A stretch of 46,931 nt of DNA, taken from the NCBI GenBank assembly GCA_017625535.1, contig JAGAKR010000013.1:1-46931 (forward strand), in the 5' to 3' direction. The position numbers and the translations under genes were made by a program. Below, in pieces: positions 10,948-19,106 of this stretch. The DNA comes from Bacteroidales bacterium. Lineage in GTDB: Bacteria; Bacteroidota; Bacteroidia; Bacteroidales; UBA932. The notes beneath the pieces were generated by a model. It had not been told where the DNA came from. It saw nothing but the letters and a program-made list of their open reading frames with translations, and made no database searches. The stretch's first letter is position 1. The number at the start of each line of letters is the position of its first letter.

Positions 10948-13900
10948 TCAATCAATATCGTTACCGTATTCCGCCCAACTTTTAATTTCAAGGTCATCTG
11001 CAGCAAGTGTGCAGAATGCACCTATGAAGGCGCTTGCAAGACGGGCATTCGTAATTAAAGGTATATTCAGGTCTACAGCCGCCCTACGGATAATGTATCC
11101 GTTGTCCAATTCTCCTGCTGTAAGATTCTTTGGAATGTTAACAACCATATCCACCTCACGATTATGAAGCATATCAAGTGCCTGGGGGTGTCCGTTTTCA
11201 CTCGGCCAGAAGACCAGAACATTATCTACACCGTTTTCCGTAAGGTATCTTGAAGTGCCGCCTGTGGCATACAAGGTATAACCTTTATCCCGCAGTTGTC
11301 TGGCTGCCGGCAACATCTCGGCCTTTTGTCTGGCATTGCCAGTAGACAACAGGATATTTTTCCCCGGAATGTCATATCCTACAGAGAGCATTGATTTCAA
11401 GAGTGCGGATTGGGTGTCATCACCTATACACCCCACCTCTCCTGTTGAAACCATATCAACCCCCAATACCGGGTCTGCATTCTGCAGACGGTTGAACGAG
11501 AACTGGCTTGCCTTTATACCCACATAATCAAGGTCAAATAATGTTTTTGAAGGCTTCTCCACATCAATGCCCAGCATAATGCGTGTAGCCAGTTCCATCA
11601 AATTCAATTTTAGGATTTTACTCACAAATGGGAATGAACGTGATGCACGCAGGTTGCACTCTATTACTTTAATGTCATTGTCACGTGCAAGGAATTGTAT
11701 ATTGAAAGGTCCCGATATGGAAAGTTCTCCGGCAATCTTGCGGGAAATGTGTTTGATGCGCCTTACTGTCTCCATATATAATTTTTGTGGAGGGAACTGT
11801 ATTGTTGCATCACCTGAATGGACACCTGCATATTCAATATGCTCACTTATTGCATAGGCCATTATCTCCCCGTTCCGGGCAACTGCATCAAACTCAACCT
11901 CTTTTGCATTTTCAATAAAACGGCTCACAACAACAGGATGCTTTTTGGATACATTTGCAGCCAATTTGAGGAAACTCTCCAGTTCACCATAGTTTGAACA
12001 CACATTCATTGCCGCCCCAGAAAGTACATAAGATGGCCGGACAAGAACAGGGAAACCTACTTTACCAATAAAATCATATATATCCTTCATAGAGGTAAGT
12101 GCACTCCATTCCGGTTGGTCCACTCCAATTCTGTCAAGCATTGCAGAGAATTTGTCCCTGTCCTCAGCATTGTCTATAGAAACCGCACTTGTACCCAGGA
12201 TATGCACATTCTGTCCATCCAAACGCATTGCAAGATTGTTTGGAATCTGACCTCCGGCAGAGAGAATCACTCCATAAGGGTTTTCAAACTCCAGAATATC
12301 CATAACCCTCTCAAACGAAAGTTCGTCAAAGTAGAGCCTGTCGCATATGTCGTAATCTGTAGATACAGTCTCAGGATTATAATTTATCATTACACTGCGG
12401 AAACCCTCTTTACGGATTGTATTGAGTGCCTGTACACCACACCAGTCGAACTCCACAGATGAACCTATACGGTAAGCGCCGGACCCAAGTACAACAACAG
12501 AATTATGGTCATCCTTATATTCCACATCACTCTCAATGCCGCTATAGGTAAGATAAAGATAGTTGGTCTGCGCAGGATACTCAGCAGCCAATGTATCAAT
12601 CCGGGAAACTACAGGCAATATGCCATGCAACTTGCGTAATGCCCTTACCTTAAGCGCCCCCCTCTCCAGATCTTCATCAAAACCTATTGCCCTTGCAATC
12701 TGGAAATCAGAAAATCCCTGCCGTTTTGCCTTTTTCATCAAACTTTCCGGCATCTGCTCCAACTCACTGATGCAATGCAGCTGCATTGAAGTGTCAATTA
12801 TGTTTTGCAGTTTGTACAGGAACCACTTGTCAATTTTAGTAAGATTGTGAATCATCTCTACACTATAACCAGAACGCAAAGCACTGCTCACAACAAAAAT
12901 CCTGATATCTGTAGGTTCGCTCAGCGATTTCTCAATATCCTCAATTACAAGTTCCTTATTCTCCACAAAACCGTGCATTCCCTGACCTATCATCCGCAGC
13001 CCCTTCTGTATTGCCTCTTCAAAAGTACGCCCTATAGACATAACCTCACCTACAGATTTCATTGAAGAACCCAAGACCCTCTCCACACCATGGAACTTGC
13101 CCAGATCCCATCGGGGAATTTTGCATACTACGTAATCCAATGCCGGTTCAAAAAATGCTGAAGTTGATTTAGTAACGGAATTCTTCAAATCAAACAAGCC
13201 ATAGCCAAGGCCCAATTTTGCCGCTACAAAAGCAAGGGGATAGCCTGTTGCCTTTGATGCAAGGGCAGATGACCTGCTCAGGCGGGCATTCACTTCTATT
13301 ACACGATAATCTTCAGAATAAGGATCAAGTGCATATTGTACATTGCACTCCCCCACTATACCTATATGGCGTATTATACGGATTGCAAGTTCCCTGAGTT
13401 TATGATATTCACTGTTTGAAAGGGTCTGTGAGGGGGCAATTACAATTGATTCTCCGGTATGTATACCCAGCGGATCAAAATTCTCCATATTGCACACAGT
13501 AATGCAGTTGTCATACGAGTCGCGCACCACTTCATACTCAATCTCTTTCCAACCCTTCAAACTCTTTTCCACCAGAACCTGCGGCGAAAATGAAAATGCC
13601 TTTTCGCATAACAGGTCCAACTCCTGTTCATTGTTGCAGAAACCGGAACCAAGTCCCCCCAATGCATATGCAACCCTTATTATTACCGGATACCCCAACT
13701 CCCGGGCAGCATTGCGTGCATCCTGCAAATTCTCCACTGCCTGGCTGCTTATGGTCTTCACTCCTATTTCATCCAGCCTCCCGACAAATTTTTCCCTGTC
13801 CTCCGTATCTATTATTGCCTGTACCTGTGTACCCAGAACCTTTACTCCATATCTCTCAAGGACACCCTTTCTATACAGTTCAACTCCACAATTCAAGGCT

Positions 13901-14178
13901 GTCTGGCCGCCGAAAGACAAGAAAATGCTGTCGGGACGCTCCTTTTCTATTACCTTCTCCGCAAAATATGGTGTAACAGGGAGAAAATAAATATGGTCTG
14001 CTATCCCTTTGGATGTCTGCACTGTTGCTATGTTCGGATTTATGAGGACAGTCTCAATTCCCTCTTCTTTGAGTGCCTTCAGAGCCTGGCTCCCGGAATA
14101 ATCAAATTCCCCTGCCTCACCAATTTTAAGGGCACCTGACCCTAAAATCAAAGCCTTCTTTACATTGTATCTTCCCAT
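10948..14178 (-). CDS. carB: Carbamoyl phosphate synthase large subunit
   Basis: CarB joins bicarbonate, ammonia delivered by CarA, and two ATP into carbamoyl phosphate for pyrimidine and arginine synthesis. The 1076-aa length is typical. The two homologous ATP-grasp halves are visible: '[23 protein letters not shown]' begins the first, and the matching '[20 protein letters not shown]' opens the second near the middle of the protein. The C-terminal MGS-like allosteric domain includes '[15 protein letters not shown]', the region that binds UMP/IMP in homologues. The ATG follows the carA stop by two bases. Confidence 0.98.
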
Positions 14179-14180
14179 TG

Positions 14181-15227
14181 CTACAACATTTTTAAAAATT
14201 CATCAAAAAGGAACTCCGTATCGGTAGGCCCTGCTGCCGCTTCGGGATGGAACTGCACAGAAAACCAAGGTTTTCCTTTATGGCGGATACCTTCATTTGA
14301 ACCATCATTCATATTCACAAACAATGGTTCCCAATCTTGTCCCAAGGTATTGTCATCAACCGCATAGCCGTGGTTCTGGCTTGTAATGAAGCAACGGTCA
14401 GAGCCAAGATGCCTCACCGGCTGGTTATGGCTTCTGTGACCATATTTCAGTTTATAGACAGATGCCCCACCAGCCTTTGCAAGGAGCTGGTTACCCATAC
14501 AGATCCCAAAAATAGGTTTGTCACCCCTCATGGCACATCTGATATGTTCTACAGTCCGGGGACAATTGTCCGGATTGCCCGGACCATTGGAAAGCAGGAG
14601 ACCGTCATATTCCATATTATTGAAATCATAATTCCACGGAACCCTTATCACCTCCACCCCACGTTTAAGGAGACATCTGATTATGTTCTGCTTCACACCA
14701 CAATCTACAAGGAGAACTTTTTTCAGACCTCCTGCATTATAATGTATCACTTCTTTGCAGCTCACTTCTGCAACATAATTTACAGATCCATATTCAACAG
14801 AGAGCTGGGTATTGTCTGTACCCTCAATTTCTATCTTTCCACACATTACCCCCCTTTCACGCAAACGTTTTGCAAGTGCACGTGTGTCTATCCCTGTAAT
14901 TGCAGGTACATTTTCCCTTTTTAACCAGTCCCCAAGACTCTCTTCTGCATTCCAATGGCTGTAGGACTCACTGTAATCACTCACAATCAGGGCTTTTGCG
15001 TATATCCGTCCACTCTCCCAGAAACTGCTCCCAGGTACTCCATAATTTCCTGCCAACGGATAAGTGAGTACAATCATCTGCCCTGCATAAGAAGGATCTG
15101 TAAGACTTTCTGTATAGCCGGTCATTGCAGTGTTGAATACCACCTCGCCATTTGTACAATGCTCCGCCCCAAATGAGTAACCGTAAAAACGGCTTCCATC
15201 TTCCAGTATTAATGTTGCTTCATTCAT
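14181..15227 (-). CDS. carA: Carbamoyl phosphate synthase small (glutaminase) subunit
   Basis: CarA hydrolyses glutamine and channels ammonia to CarB. The N-terminal CarA domain starts with 'ATLILEDGSRFYGYSFG'; the C-terminal class I amidotransferase has the nucleophile motif 'FGICMGNQ' (the usual His after Gly is Asn here) and 'SVQFHPEAAAGPTDTE'. A TTG at 15233 is in frame, but the ATG at 15227 gives a normal 348-aa protein starting MNEATLIL. This ATG overlaps the purF-like stop by eight bases, implying translational coupling. Glutamine specificity is inferred from the intact Cys and His-Glu motifs. Confidence 0.97.
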   Translation of the reverse strand: MNEATLILEDGSRFYGYSFGAEHCTNGEVVFNTAMTGYTESLTDPSYAGQMIVLTYPLAGNYGVPGSSFWESGRIYAKALIVSDYSESYSHWNAEESLGDWLKRENVPAITGIDTRALAKRLRERGVMCGKIEIEGTDNTQLSVEYGSVNYVAEVSCKEVIHYNAGGLKKVLLVDCGVKQNIIRCLLKRGVEVIRVPWNYDFNNMEYDGLLLSNGPGNPDNCPRTVEHIRCAMRGDKPIFGICMGNQLLAKAGGASVYKLKYGHRSHNQPVRHLGSDRCFITSQNHGYAVDDNTLGQDWEPLFVNMNDGSNEGIRHKGKPWFSVQFHPEAAAGPTDTEFLFDEFLKML

Positions 15228-17046
15228 TTTCAATATAATCTATAAATGCTTTGTTAAGAAGTTTCAAACCGCCGCAAGTGGGATAATCCCCGCTGAAATA
15301 CCAGTCTCCCTGATGGCCCGAGCAGGATTTTTTCAAACCCTCAATTGTCTGGTACAATATCTCCACTTTTACATCAACAGAAACCGGAGCAAGAAGTTCC
15401 GCAATCCTGGCTGAAATCTCCTCATCTGTAAACTGCCCGTAAATCTCCTTCACATAATTGTGAATCATCTCCTTAGGTAACTTCTCCTGTGCCTTGCAGG
15501 AATCATAGACAGATGCAATTACACTCTCCTTTCCCTGTTCTTTCAGGAGCCCGATGGCAGCACGGAATGCAATGAACTGGTCAAGGCTGGACATATCAAT
15601 ACCGTAATAATCGGGGTACCGTACCTGAGGAGAAGAGGATACAATCACTATCTTCCTGGGATGCAGTCTGCTGAGGATGGATATGATGCTCTGCTTCAAA
15701 GTGGTGCCACGTACAATGCTGTCGTCAATTACCACAAGATTATCTTCAAACGGCACAATGCTCCCATAGGTTATGTCATAAACGTGGGCCGCAAGATCGT
15801 TGCGTTTTTCACCTTCAGAGATGAAGGTACGCAACTTGATATCTTTGATGGCAACTTTCTCGCTGCGTACCCTCATTGAAAGTATCTGCTCCAGCTCCCT
15901 GTGCCCAGGATTTTGCCCCAGTTCCTCAATCATTCTCAATTTCAACCCGTTCAGGTAATTGTTGAGTCCTTCCAGCATTCCATAGAAAGCAGCCTCTGCA
16001 GTATTGGGAATATAGGAAAATACAGTATGCACAATGTCATAATCAATGGATTTGAGTATTGCCGGCACCAGATTGTTTCCCAAAGCCTTGCGTTCCCTGT
16101 AAATGTCCATGTCACTGCCGCGTGAAAAATATATCCTTTCAAACGAACAAGGTCTCACCTGCTGCGGTTTGTTCACCTGCACAATATCCATAACACCCCT
16201 CTTGTTCAGTATAAGCGCTTCCCCAGGCTGCAATTCATTAACCGCATCAACGGGCACATCAAGAACAGTCTGTATTACCGGACGTTCAGAAGCCAGAACC
16301 ATAACCTCATCATCCATATAGTAAAATGCCGTACGGATACCCCAGGGATCACGCACGGCAAACATATCTCCACTGCCAGTAATGCCACATATTACATAAC
16401 CGCCATCCCAACTTTGGCTTGATGCCTGCAGAACATTTCTAAGATTCAGGCGCTCCTCTATGGATGATATCAAAGCAACTCCTTCCAATCCTTCCCCACT
16501 GCATTCCCTGTACAGCCTTTCAAATTCACAATCAAGTCTGTAACCAATCTGTTCCAGCATAATATATGTGTCTGAATACCTTCTTGGATGCTGTCCTTCA
16601 CAAGTTATTCCGGCAAATACCTCATCTACATTTGTAAGATTGAAATTACCGCACAATGCAAGATTCCTTGCCCTGAAATTGTTGCGGCGCAGGAATGGAT
16701 GAATATAGTCAATCCCCCTCTTTCCGGTTGTGGAATAACGGAGATGCCCCATATACAGTTCTCCGTAATTGCGGATATCCAGATTCCTGTGTACAGAATC
16801 AAAAATTTCAGATATGGCATTTGTACCAACGGCCCGCTCCCTGAACATATACTCACTACCCGGCACCGCATCAAGTTTTACACAAGCCAATCCGGCCCCC
16901 TCCTGACCTCTGTTGTGCTGTTTTTCCATCAGCAGATAAAGTTTGTCAAGAGCCCACCTCCAAGTCCCGTACTTGTTGTGGTAATATTGGAGAGGCTTCA
17001 TCAGACGGACCATAGCCACCCCACATTCGTGCTTTATCGTTTCCAT
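15220..17046 (-). CDS. purF: Amidophosphoribosyltransferase-type class II glutamine amidotransferase
   Basis: The protein matches PurF, which makes phosphoribosylamine from PRPP and glutamine, the first step of purine synthesis. An in-frame TTG lies 25 codons upstream, but the ATG at 17046 puts the catalytic Cys at residue 8 (METIKHECGV), fitting a short propeptide removed to expose an N-terminal cysteine. The Ntn glutaminase domain has 'HLRYSTTG' (about 101-108) and 'CGNFNLTNV'; the PRPP loop 'VVIDDSIVRGTT' is at residues 438-449. At 608 aa it is longer than the roughly 470-500 aa of classical PurF, as in the long Bacteroidales form that sits beside carAB. Whether it is the main PurF or a paralog cannot be decided here, since a second copy could lie elsewhere. 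It leads the operon. Confidence 0.88.
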   Translation of the reverse strand: METIKHECGVAMVRLMKPLQYYHNKYGTWRWALDKLYLLMEKQHNRGQEGAGLACVKLDAVPGSEYMFRERAVGTNAISEIFDSVHRNLDIRNYGELYMGHLRYSTTGKRGIDYIHPFLRRNNFRARNLALCGNFNLTNVDEVFAGITCEGQHPRRYSDTYIMLEQIGYRLDCEFERLYRECSGEGLEGVALISSIEERLNLRNVLQASSQSWDGGYVICGITGSGDMFAVRDPWGIRTAFYYMDDEVMVLASERPVIQTVLDVPVDAVNELQPGEALILNKRGVMDIVQVNKPQQVRPCSFERIYFSRGSDMDIYRERKALGNNLVPAILKSIDYDIVHTVFSYIPNTAEAAFYGMLEGLNNYLNGLKLRMIEELGQNPGHRELEQILSMRVRSEKVAIKDIKLRTFISEGEKRNDLAAHVYDITYGSIVPFEDNLVVIDDSIVRGTTLKQSIISILSRLHPRKIVIVSSSPQVRYPDYYGIDMSSLDQFIAFRAAIGLLKEQGKESVIASVYDSCKAQEKLPKEMIHNYVKEIYGQFTDEEISARIAELLAPVSVDVKVEILYQTIEGLKKSCSGHQGDWYFSGDYPTCGGLKLLNKAFIDYIENE

Positions 17047-17063
17047 TTTTCTGAAATATGCCG

Positions 17064-17071
17064 CAAAATTA
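17064..17071 (-). promoter_or_regulatory. Candidate -7 box for the purF-carA-carB-guaA-pyrG operon
   Basis: Read on the minus strand these bases are TAATTTTG, an exact match to the Bacteroides -7 consensus TAnnTTTG, 17 bases before the chosen purF start. No good TTG -33 box stands 19-21 bases upstream. The rest of 17072-17301, the divergent gap before the DapL-like gene, is A+T rich and shows no further structure that could be assigned. Confidence 0.45.
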
Positions 17072-17301
17072 AATTTGAAGTGTAAAACAGTATCCTTTGG
17101 GAACAGGGTTTTGAAGAGCAAAAAACCTCATCCTTTAAAATTCAAACCCAGACAAACCACACAGATTAAGAATCATTATAGATGATGGTAGAAAAATTAC
17201 AATTTATAAATATGTATGATTTTCCCGATGAATTTTTGCAGATTTACAATCACAATTTTAATGCATTCTCATTAACTTAGCACCCCAAATCGGGCAATGT
17301 T

Positions 17302-18537
17302 ATGGCACTTTTGAACGAATATTTTTTAGAGTTCCCCAGTGGCAATCTGTTCTCCGACATAGAGAGGGAAATAAACACATTCAAAGTAATCCGTCCCAAT
17401 GCAGCACCCATTGATATGGGGATAAATGATGTCACCATCCCCTTGCCATCATCAATTGTGGAAGCAATGCATAAGGCCGTGGACGATATGTCGGAATCAA
17501 GTACATTTCACGGATATGGCCCTGAACAGGGGTATGAATTCCTTAGGGATGCCATCATAAAAAACGATTTCAACACGCGTGGAATACACCTCACTCCAAA
17601 TGAAGTATTCATAAATGACGGAGTAAAAAGTGAGGTGGGAAATATTGGTGATATTCTGTGCGCAGACAATACTATAGGTGTTGTTGGACCAATATACCCA
17701 ATATACATAGAAAGCAATGTGATATCAGGCAGGGCCGGAGTGTTCAGCCGGGGCAAATGGAGCAATGTAAGTTATCTTGCCTGCAATGAAAGCAATGGAT
17801 TTACCCCAATGCCGCCGGATACTCCAATAGATATTGTCTATTTATGCTCTCCCTGCAATCCTACAGGGGCTGCCTACAGTAAAGGGCAACTGAAGAAATG
17901 GGTAGATTATGCATTAAAGAACAATACCCTCATTCTGTTTGACGCATCATATGAAGCCTATATCCAGTCTCCAGACATTCCTCATTCAATTTATGAAATA
18001 CGCGGAGCAAAAAAGGTTGCAATTGAACTGAGAAGTTTTTCCCGTACGGCAGGATTTACCGGTCTCAGGTGCGGATATACTATAATCCCCAAAGAACTGG
18101 CTGTACAGACTATGGAAGGAAAGAGGGTACAGATAAATTCGTTGTGGAGGAGGCGCCAGAGTGTAAGGTCAAATGGAGTCTCGTATGTAACCCAGTGTGC
18201 CGCTGCAGCAACATATTCACAGGAAGGGCAAAGACAGCTTGGTGAAACCAGAGAATACTATATGGATAATGTACGCCTGATGAGACGGACGCTTTCACAA
18301 TTGAATCTGAAGATTTACGGGGGCGAGCATGTTCCATACTTGTGGATCAAAACACCAAAGGGGACATCATCGTGGGAATTCTTTGAATCAATGCTTTACA
18401 GGGCAAAGGTAATATGCACACCTGGCATTGTATTCGGCCCGGGCGGTGAAGGATATGTGAGGATTAGTGCATTTGCCAATCGTAAAGATTGCACAGATGC
18501 AGCCGCAAGAATCAAAGAGTGGCTGGAAATCAAATAG
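17302..18537 (+). CDS. LL-diaminopimelate aminotransferase paralog lacking the PLP lysine
   Basis: Over its whole 411 aa the protein aligns with DapL, which converts tetrahydrodipicolinate to LL-diaminopimelate: 'FHGYGPEQGYEFL', 'GNIGDIL', 'IVYLCSPCNPTGAAY', 'LILFDASYEAYI', 'PDIPHSIYEIRGAKKVAIE' and 'TSSWEFFESML'. The PLP pocket Asp and Tyr (FDASY) remain. However, in the Schiff-base motif, normally SFSKTAGFTG, residue 248 is Arg (codon CGT at 18043-18045). Other positions usually conserved also differ: 'GINDVTIPLP' for the familiar GIGDxTxPLP, 'RRRQSVRSNG' for NRRQxxKFNG, and 'GIVFGPGGEG' for GxGFGPSGEG. The frame is intact, so selection seems to keep the protein. It may be inactive as a transaminase, regulatory, or altered in chemistry; calling it dapL outright would be misleading. 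No dapF or dapB lies nearby. Confidence 0.85.
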   Translation: MALLNEYFLEFPSGNLFSDIEREINTFKVIRPNAAPIDMGINDVTIPLPSSIVEAMHKAVDDMSESSTFHGYGPEQGYEFLRDAIIKNDFNTRGIHLTPNEVFINDGVKSEVGNIGDILCADNTIGVVGPIYPIYIESNVISGRAGVFSRGKWSNVSYLACNESNGFTPMPPDTPIDIVYLCSPCNPTGAAYSKGQLKKWVDYALKNNTLILFDASYEAYIQSPDIPHSIYEIRGAKKVAIELRSFSRTAGFTGLRCGYTIIPKELAVQTMEGKRVQINSLWRRRQSVRSNGVSYVTQCAAAATYSQEGQRQLGETREYYMDNVRLMRRTLSQLNLKIYGGEHVPYLWIKTPKGTSSWEFFESMLYRAKVICTPGIVFGPGGEGYVRISAFANRKDCTDAAARIKEWLEIK

Positions 18538-18623: not shown

Positions 18624-19106
18624 ATGACAGAAAAACAGATACAAATAAATTACAGGGAATACAATTCTGCTGAGGAAACTGCCAATCATTACTGGAGGCT
18701 GCTGGATGAGGCAGTGAAGGCAACAGAGAGTTCTTATGCCCCTTATTCCAATTTTAATGTGGGGGCTGCTGTGCTTATGGAGAATGGGGAGGTAGTTACC
18801 GGTTCAAACCAGGAAAATGCCGCATCTCCGTCGGGATTATGTGCAGAAAGGGTTGCCTTGTTTGCGGCTCATCACCGCTGGCCGGGAGTGGCCGTAAAAG
18901 CCATTGCAATTATAGGAAAAAGCGGCGGTGCCATTACCGGGGAACTCACCTACCCTTGTGCCGCCTGCATCCAGGTAATGCTGGAGAGCCAGAAGCGCTC
19001 AGGCAAACCGGTTGAGATAATTGTGGGATCTGCAGGGAAGATACAGGTGTTCCCATCTGTAGATGCATTGTTGCCGTTCTCTTTCGGCAATATACCCGGG
19101 AAATAA
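18624..19106 (+). CDS. cdd: Cytidine deaminase
   Basis: Cytidine deaminase hydrolyses cytidine and deoxycytidine to uridine forms in pyrimidine salvage. The 160-aa product shows 'SYAPYSNFNVGAAVLMENG', the zinc and proton-shuttle motif Cys73-Ala-Glu75, and 'PCAACIQ' with Cys112 and Cys115, the three-cysteine zinc site of the tetrameric class. An AGGAG-like stretch a few bases upstream supports the ATG. It follows the DapL-like gene by 86 bases in the same direction and ends before a strong hairpin terminator. Confidence 0.95.
   Translation: MTEKQIQINYREYNSAEETANHYWRLLDEAVKATESSYAPYSNFNVGAAVLMENGEVVTGSNQENAASPSGLCAERVALFAAHHRWPGVAVKAIAIIGKSGGAITGELTYPCAACIQVMLESQKRSGKPVEIIVGSAGKIQVFPSVDALLPFSFGNIPGK

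Follow-up and report, generated by a model that had tools for sequence, protein, structure and literature searches.

What does a protein of the LL-diaminopimelate aminotransferase (DapL) family do when the lysine expected to bind its PLP is replaced by arginine? The question is raised by one gene of the window, meaning here the whole 46,931-nucleotide stretch of DNA from a Bacteroidales bacterium that was analyzed. The gene is a single open frame of 411 aa, and its product scored 521.6 bits against the LL-diaminopimelate aminotransferase model TIGR03542 (cut-off 364.7), which places it in the DapL sequence family; DapL structures were also its best matches with both phmmer and Foldseek. In Lys-type relatives the Schiff-base loop reads SFSKTAGFTG or SYSKTAGFTG. 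The residue aligned with Arg248 of the window protein is lysine in three solved DapLs and corresponds to K270 of the Arabidopsis enzyme, which, like K282 in Chlamydomonas, binds PLP covalently (PMC3102117). The first-pass annotation had reported a CGT codon for arginine inside the Schiff-base motif, and both the codon and the alignment bear this out (Table 1). The window protein hence lacks the PLP-aldimine lysine of a DapL, as do all 17 members of its clade.

Table 1 Features of the window around the Lys-less DapL-family gene.
Feature	Position	Strand	Basis
carB-like large subunit (name given from general knowledge)	10948..14178	-	81-86% identical to the same-place gene in 10 relatives
carA, carbamoyl-phosphate synthase small subunit	14181..15227	-	Pfam PF00988 and PF00117; same order in relatives
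PurF-like / glutamine amidotransferase-like protein (name given from general knowledge)	15220..17046	-	divergent from the Arg-clade gene in 17/17 loci
Divergent intergenic region	17047..17301	.	13 regions aligned
Lys-less DapL-family protein, member of the Arg248 clade	17302..18537	+	TIGR03542 profile; phmmer and Foldseek; clade tree
Schiff-base loop, SFSRTAGFTG, residues 245-254	18034..18063	+	translation and alignment
CGT codon for Arg248 at the position of the PLP lysine	18043..18045	+	codon read; Arg in 17/17 clade members
Cytidine deaminase, at the place taken by type III glutamine synthetase in 12/17 clade loci	18624..19106	+	profile scores

For comparison, contigs were scanned and the best 80 of 408 encoding stretches were kept, to which further searches added more. 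Partial matches shorter than 900 bases were left out, as was L006/L147, a 121-aa sequence that lies at a contig end and does not include position 248, while L012, from the same genome as L005/L150, was left out of the first tree and its counts. After removal of L151, a 26% match that is an aminotransferase and not a DapL, from 172 distinct proteins, the final set comprised 171 distinct DapL-family proteins. All 114 distinct dapF-linked DapLs in this set had lysine at position 248. The window protein belonged to a clade of 17 distinct proteins from 17 genomes, every one with arginine, and SH-aLRT support for this clade was 100 in both quick trees. The Lys-to-Arg change thus defines a clade, the outcome that the first-pass annotation had proposed to look for in a homologue tree. 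The stem of the clade was long (0.68 in the 88-row tree, with 14 Arg rows, and 0.81 in the 130-row tree, with 17, the dapF-linked rows of the latter being a random part), and the Lys-type copies of Arg-clade genomes fell outside it in both trees. The arginine was encoded by CGT in ten members, CGC in five, and CGG and CGA in one each; its presence in 17/17 with four synonymous codons argues that the residue itself is selected. The clade is rare in the family and order samples, since at E 1e-180 only two of 398 family genomes matched (the window genome and G006), and three of 393 genomes in the order sample (the window genome and two with Lys-type proteins at 62-63% identity).

Outside position 248, much of the active site is retained. 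E75, K109, N186, D214, Y217, S247, R256, and R387 were kept in all 17 clade members, Y132 in 16, and N291 in 14. By analogy with fold type I enzymes, we take N186, D214, Y217, S247, and R256 to be the cofactor-pocket positions, and each was kept throughout the clade. Of the residues assigned to substrate recognition in the Chlamydomonas enzyme (PMC3102117), K142 aligns with K109, E110 with E75, and N321 with N291; the window protein has all three. Position 46, initially considered as the substrate glutamate, was rejected after mapping, which placed this glutamate at the conserved E75. The first-pass annotation had also stated that other near-invariant positions differ, and this was confirmed for G42 (asparagine in 16 members and histidine in one) and for K289, which is arginine in 17/17. 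Furthermore, Y183 was replaced by serine in all members, and Y15, presumably the counterpart of the substrate-contacting Y37 in Arabidopsis, was replaced in all by N, D, S, A, T, or G. Being replaced and variable at Y15, the clade may bind a different ligand. An AlphaFold model of the window protein (mean pLDDT 78.8, pTM 0.82; weak stretches 1-11 and 133-143) had DapL 6oxm as its top Foldseek match (TM 0.89, 45% identity). The matches that followed were Arabidopsis DapL, and matches 2, 4, 5, 6, and 10 were, by their titles, K270N/K270Q variants in complexes. The ligands of these complexes are presumably LL-DAP and L-Glu, and the complexes imply that a DapL without the PLP lysine can still crystallize with a ligand.

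From the chemistry, it is very likely that ordinary transamination is lost. A Lys-less protein should be unable to form the internal aldimine, so that it would not cycle as a transaminase and LL-DAP would no longer be made. PLP and an acidic amino acid, either glutamate or DAP, could still form a stable external aldimine within the pocket, an idea taken from our reading of the K270N/K270Q Arabidopsis crystals. The role that we infer, and favor tentatively from sequence comparisons, is that a DapL copy residing in a nitrogen-assimilation gene group gave rise to a pseudo-aminotransferase with bound PLP and acidic amino acid, which would report or buffer glutamate/PLP status for nitrogen assimilation, probably via a partner. 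A glutamate/PLP role seems the most likely one because binding of PLP and glutamate needs no DAP pathway. Against a sensor, Arg248 could itself block PLP binding.

The first-pass annotation had offered a sensor or different chemistry as possible roles, and judged from sequence both are possible. In the second, the protein would be an enzyme that works without an internal aldimine, using PMP or non-covalent PLP, and Arg248 would act as an acid/base group or bind anions. ColD provides a precedent for chemistry of this type. The conserved cofactor pocket and the retention of Arg248 through synonymous codon change agree with such an enzyme, and the fixed Y183S and K289R together with the near-fixed G42N look like re-tooling. 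However, arginine is a poor base, and the only neighbor shared by 17/17 loci is the PurF-like gene, which suggests no nameable new pathway. We know of no DapL with chemistry altered in this way, and consider this alternative somewhat unlikely.

The pseudo-aminotransferase reading draws on the gene neighborhood. The PurF-like protein encoded divergently upstream had no Pfam match at 1e-8, and was 67-76% identical to its counterpart in the loci of 13 relatives. In the intergenic region between the two genes, TAACTTAG at 17273-17280 aligns with the TAnnTTTGCA block of several relatives, which we take to be a Bacteroidetes -7-like element, and is one base off TAnnTTTG; among the 13 aligned regions, the exact TAnnTTTG was absent at this block in the window and in L018. 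A common upstream regulatory motif was also sought by eye in these regions, and just the promoter-like block was seen. Downstream, the next gene on the same strand was type III glutamine synthetase (GSIII) in 12/17 clade loci, and in seven of them (L007-L011, L013, and L017) the match ends are separated by 18-26 bp. In the other five, the next recognized gene was an Lrp-type regulator (G006), dapF (L143), gltB (L144), the cytidine deaminase of the window, or none (L018). The cytidine deaminase scored 90.6 bits with NF004064 (cut-off 74) and 101.4 with TIGR01354, under its cut-off of 113.65. In L009, L011, L015, and L143, the Arg-clade gene is followed on the same strand, after a few kb, by dapF and a Lys-type dapL. 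The earlier remark that the gene lies away from lysine genes hence applies to the window only; in relatives it is found near dapF/dapL and nitrogen-assimilation genes.

Related gene groups have been described in Prevotella ruminicola. According to PMC5552732, glnN-2, gltBD, and dapF form a cluster in strain 23, with glnK, amtB, and asnB in a neighboring one, and ammonium limitation raises the transcripts of all of these genes, although enzyme activities in the same study were higher without ammonium limitation, against the direction of the transcripts. PRU_1974, an aminotransferase, and PRU_1973, a glutamine amidotransferase, are plotted with those genes in that paper and have no assigned pathway. 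We infer that they represent the gene pair seen here, with PRU_1974 as the Lys-type counterpart.

DapL copies next to GSIII are not confined to the Arg clade. A DapL match was present in 49/61 genomes of the wider group, many with two DapLs, and where both places could be read, most pairs consisted of one copy after dapF and one before GSIII. By a blast-based rule, which counted dapF up to 700 bp upstream and GSIII up to 400 bp downstream as linked and under which genes near contig ends, such as L063, may be misclassified, 44 DapLs were GSIII-linked without a recognized dapF upstream: 28 had Lys, 3 had Met, and 13 had Arg, the latter comprising L208 and 12 members of the window clade. The Met genes (L163:4218-5444, L191:2443-3669, and L206:2321-3547) have lost R387, which is Gln in each, and their dN/dS was 0.10-0.13. 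L208 (2375-3595) has AGA for its arginine, together with K109Q and N186V, and E75 is lost in all four. Two further GSIII-linked copies keep Lys248 and have lost other near-invariant pocket residues, namely L157:4388-5614 (S15 and H132) and L190:2447 onward (H15 and C132). In L209 (2622 onward), the match of a dapF-linked, Lys-type DapL ends prematurely at 308 residues, next to a second DapL piece.

The 130-row tree requires three lysine-loss changes. In AU tests on 58 rows, a single clade of all Lys-less rows was not rejected (p 0.283), and neither was a grouping of L208 with the Arg rows (p 0.302) or with the Met rows (p 0.549); in the 58-row tree, the Arg clade adjoined the Met group, with a support of 26. 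From these sequence data, the lysine appears to have been lost one to three times. The AGA codon of L208, as compared with CGN in the window clade, fits separate losses and is no proof of them.

These copies also bear on a regulatory subunit that would pair with a canonical DapL or with the adjacent GSIII. DapL active sites are formed by both monomers (PMC3102117), a Lys-type DapL was found in 7/17 clade genomes, and GSIII is the next gene in 12/17. Moreover, the three Met genes and L208, Lys-less and GSIII-linked as well, each share a genome with a dapF-linked Lys-type DapL. The window genome (G000) and G006 do not fit: no canonical DapL was found in either, and each shows one GSIII, located elsewhere and outside the lineage linked to the Arg-clade gene (by FastTree, with a long-branch warning). 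The linked lineage was not found in these two genomes, which weakens a strict partnership with the adjacent GSIII. Draft genomes make single absences weak, yet canonical DapL was found in none of the 39 genus genomes. We regard such a subunit as unlikely.

The host genome is 88.63% complete, and the second, canonical dapL that the first-pass annotation had proposed to look for was not found in it, the next best match being 28% identical. Fourteen of the 39 genus genomes, the window's included and one of them a single-contig genome, were tested for the DAP pathway. Neither dapA nor dapB was found in any of the 14, and ddh (DAP dehydrogenase) was not found above cut-off, ten genomes having a weak match of ~35 residues. 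Among 12 other Arg-clade genomes, dapA was present in 11, dapB in 11, and ddh in 10, with dapA and dapB together in 11/12. Due to the missing dapA and dapB in the genus genomes tested, the window's included, there is no evident supply of DapL substrate. The first-pass annotation had counted the lack of another dapL and of any alternative lysine route, if combined with measured aminotransferase activity, against its reading; of this, no other dapL was found, and searches for dapA, dapB, and ddh were negative as well. The cell-wall meso-DAP of the genus, or its substitute, is likewise without an evident source. DapF was present above cut-off in the window genome as a divergent copy on contig C5 (L146:6746-7573), 27% identical to the dapF of relatives, kept though dapA and dapB were not found, and with neighbors that we take to be lpxB and surE.

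At E 1e-30, a DapL match was found in three of the 39 genus genomes: the window genome, G006, and G020, where it was a 121-residue piece at a contig end, short of position 248. The other 36 (73-96% complete) had no match, and the Lys-less gene hence seems dispensable there. We read this as a gene that outlived the DAP pathway in a few genomes of the genus and was lost in most, with the proviso that draft assemblies are incomplete. For the window genome and G006, there is good support for a retained function other than DAP synthesis. Slow LL-DAP synthesis, unaided or with another lysine, is very improbable: the score lies far above the TIGR03542 equivalog cut-off and K109 is kept, but the family depends for catalysis on the Schiff-base lysine, and neither dapA nor dapB turned up in the host or in the 13 other genus genomes tested.

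Purifying selection on the gene was also evident. Omega, calculated from 14 genes of each type, was 0.050 for the Arg type and 0.031 for the Lys type. The mean protein divergence ratio for the ten pairs involving the window genome was 0.86 relative to the PurF-like protein and 0.92 relative to CarA, as compared with 0.90 and 0.93 for the 36 pairs without the window genome and G006; by this measure, the window copy of the Lys-less gene has not evolved faster than these two neighbors. A sequencing error or decaying copy, to which the 36/39 genus genomes without a match might point, has next to no probability, and is refuted for the clade as a whole by arginine in 17/17 members with four codons, the low omega, and the lack of internal stops in the 172 proteins compared. 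The first-pass annotation was therefore right to see an evolved protein: it is full length, under selection, and carries further fixed changes.

A broader scenario, which we consider doubtful, would be that in Bacteroidales a second DapL, after capture by a glutamine-synthetase/nitrogen gene group, lost the PLP lysine repeatedly, with Arg or Met in its place, and turned into a PLP-amino-acid sensor without catalytic activity, which adjusts nitrogen assimilation and persists even where DAP synthesis is gone. If the protein is indeed a PLP-glutamate sensor, gut bacteria would have a nitrogen-status reporter of a new kind. Aminotransferases are often named from family score alone, and TIGR03542 was passed by all ten further proteins scanned (five Arg-clade members, the three Met proteins, L208, and L157, which keeps Lys). 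The equivalog model thus accepts Lys-less proteins as LL-DAP aminotransferases, and DAP and lysine synthesis may be wrongly predicted. Natural Lys-to-Arg and Lys-to-Met versions are available for comparison.

A full-text search of open-licence PubMed Central papers found no description of a natural Lys-less DapL. Compared with DapL proper (TIGR03542; Arabidopsis, Chlamydomonas, and Verrucomicrobium), the window protein has the same full-length fold and most of the PLP and substrate contacts, but has Arg for the PLP lysine, replacements of Y15, G42, Y183, and K289, and a host in which dapA and dapB were not found. It resembles the K270N/K270Q variants of Arabidopsis DapL (3ei8, 3ei9, and 3eia), solved as complexes by their titles, in having no PLP lysine; those are engineered and carry Asn or Gln, whereas the window protein is natural and carries Arg. 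With the GSIII-linked DapLs of Bacteroides-like genomes its clade shares the place before GSIII, and some of those are also Lys-less (Met in L163, L191, and L206; Arg in L208), but 28/44 there keep Lys, and E75 and R387 are kept in the window clade. Natural PLP-fold proteins without the lysine include LCB1 of serine palmitoyltransferase and ColD. The window protein shares with these the fold type I and the absence of an aldimine lysine, whereas LCB1 and ColD belong to other families, have other replacing residues, and have known roles.
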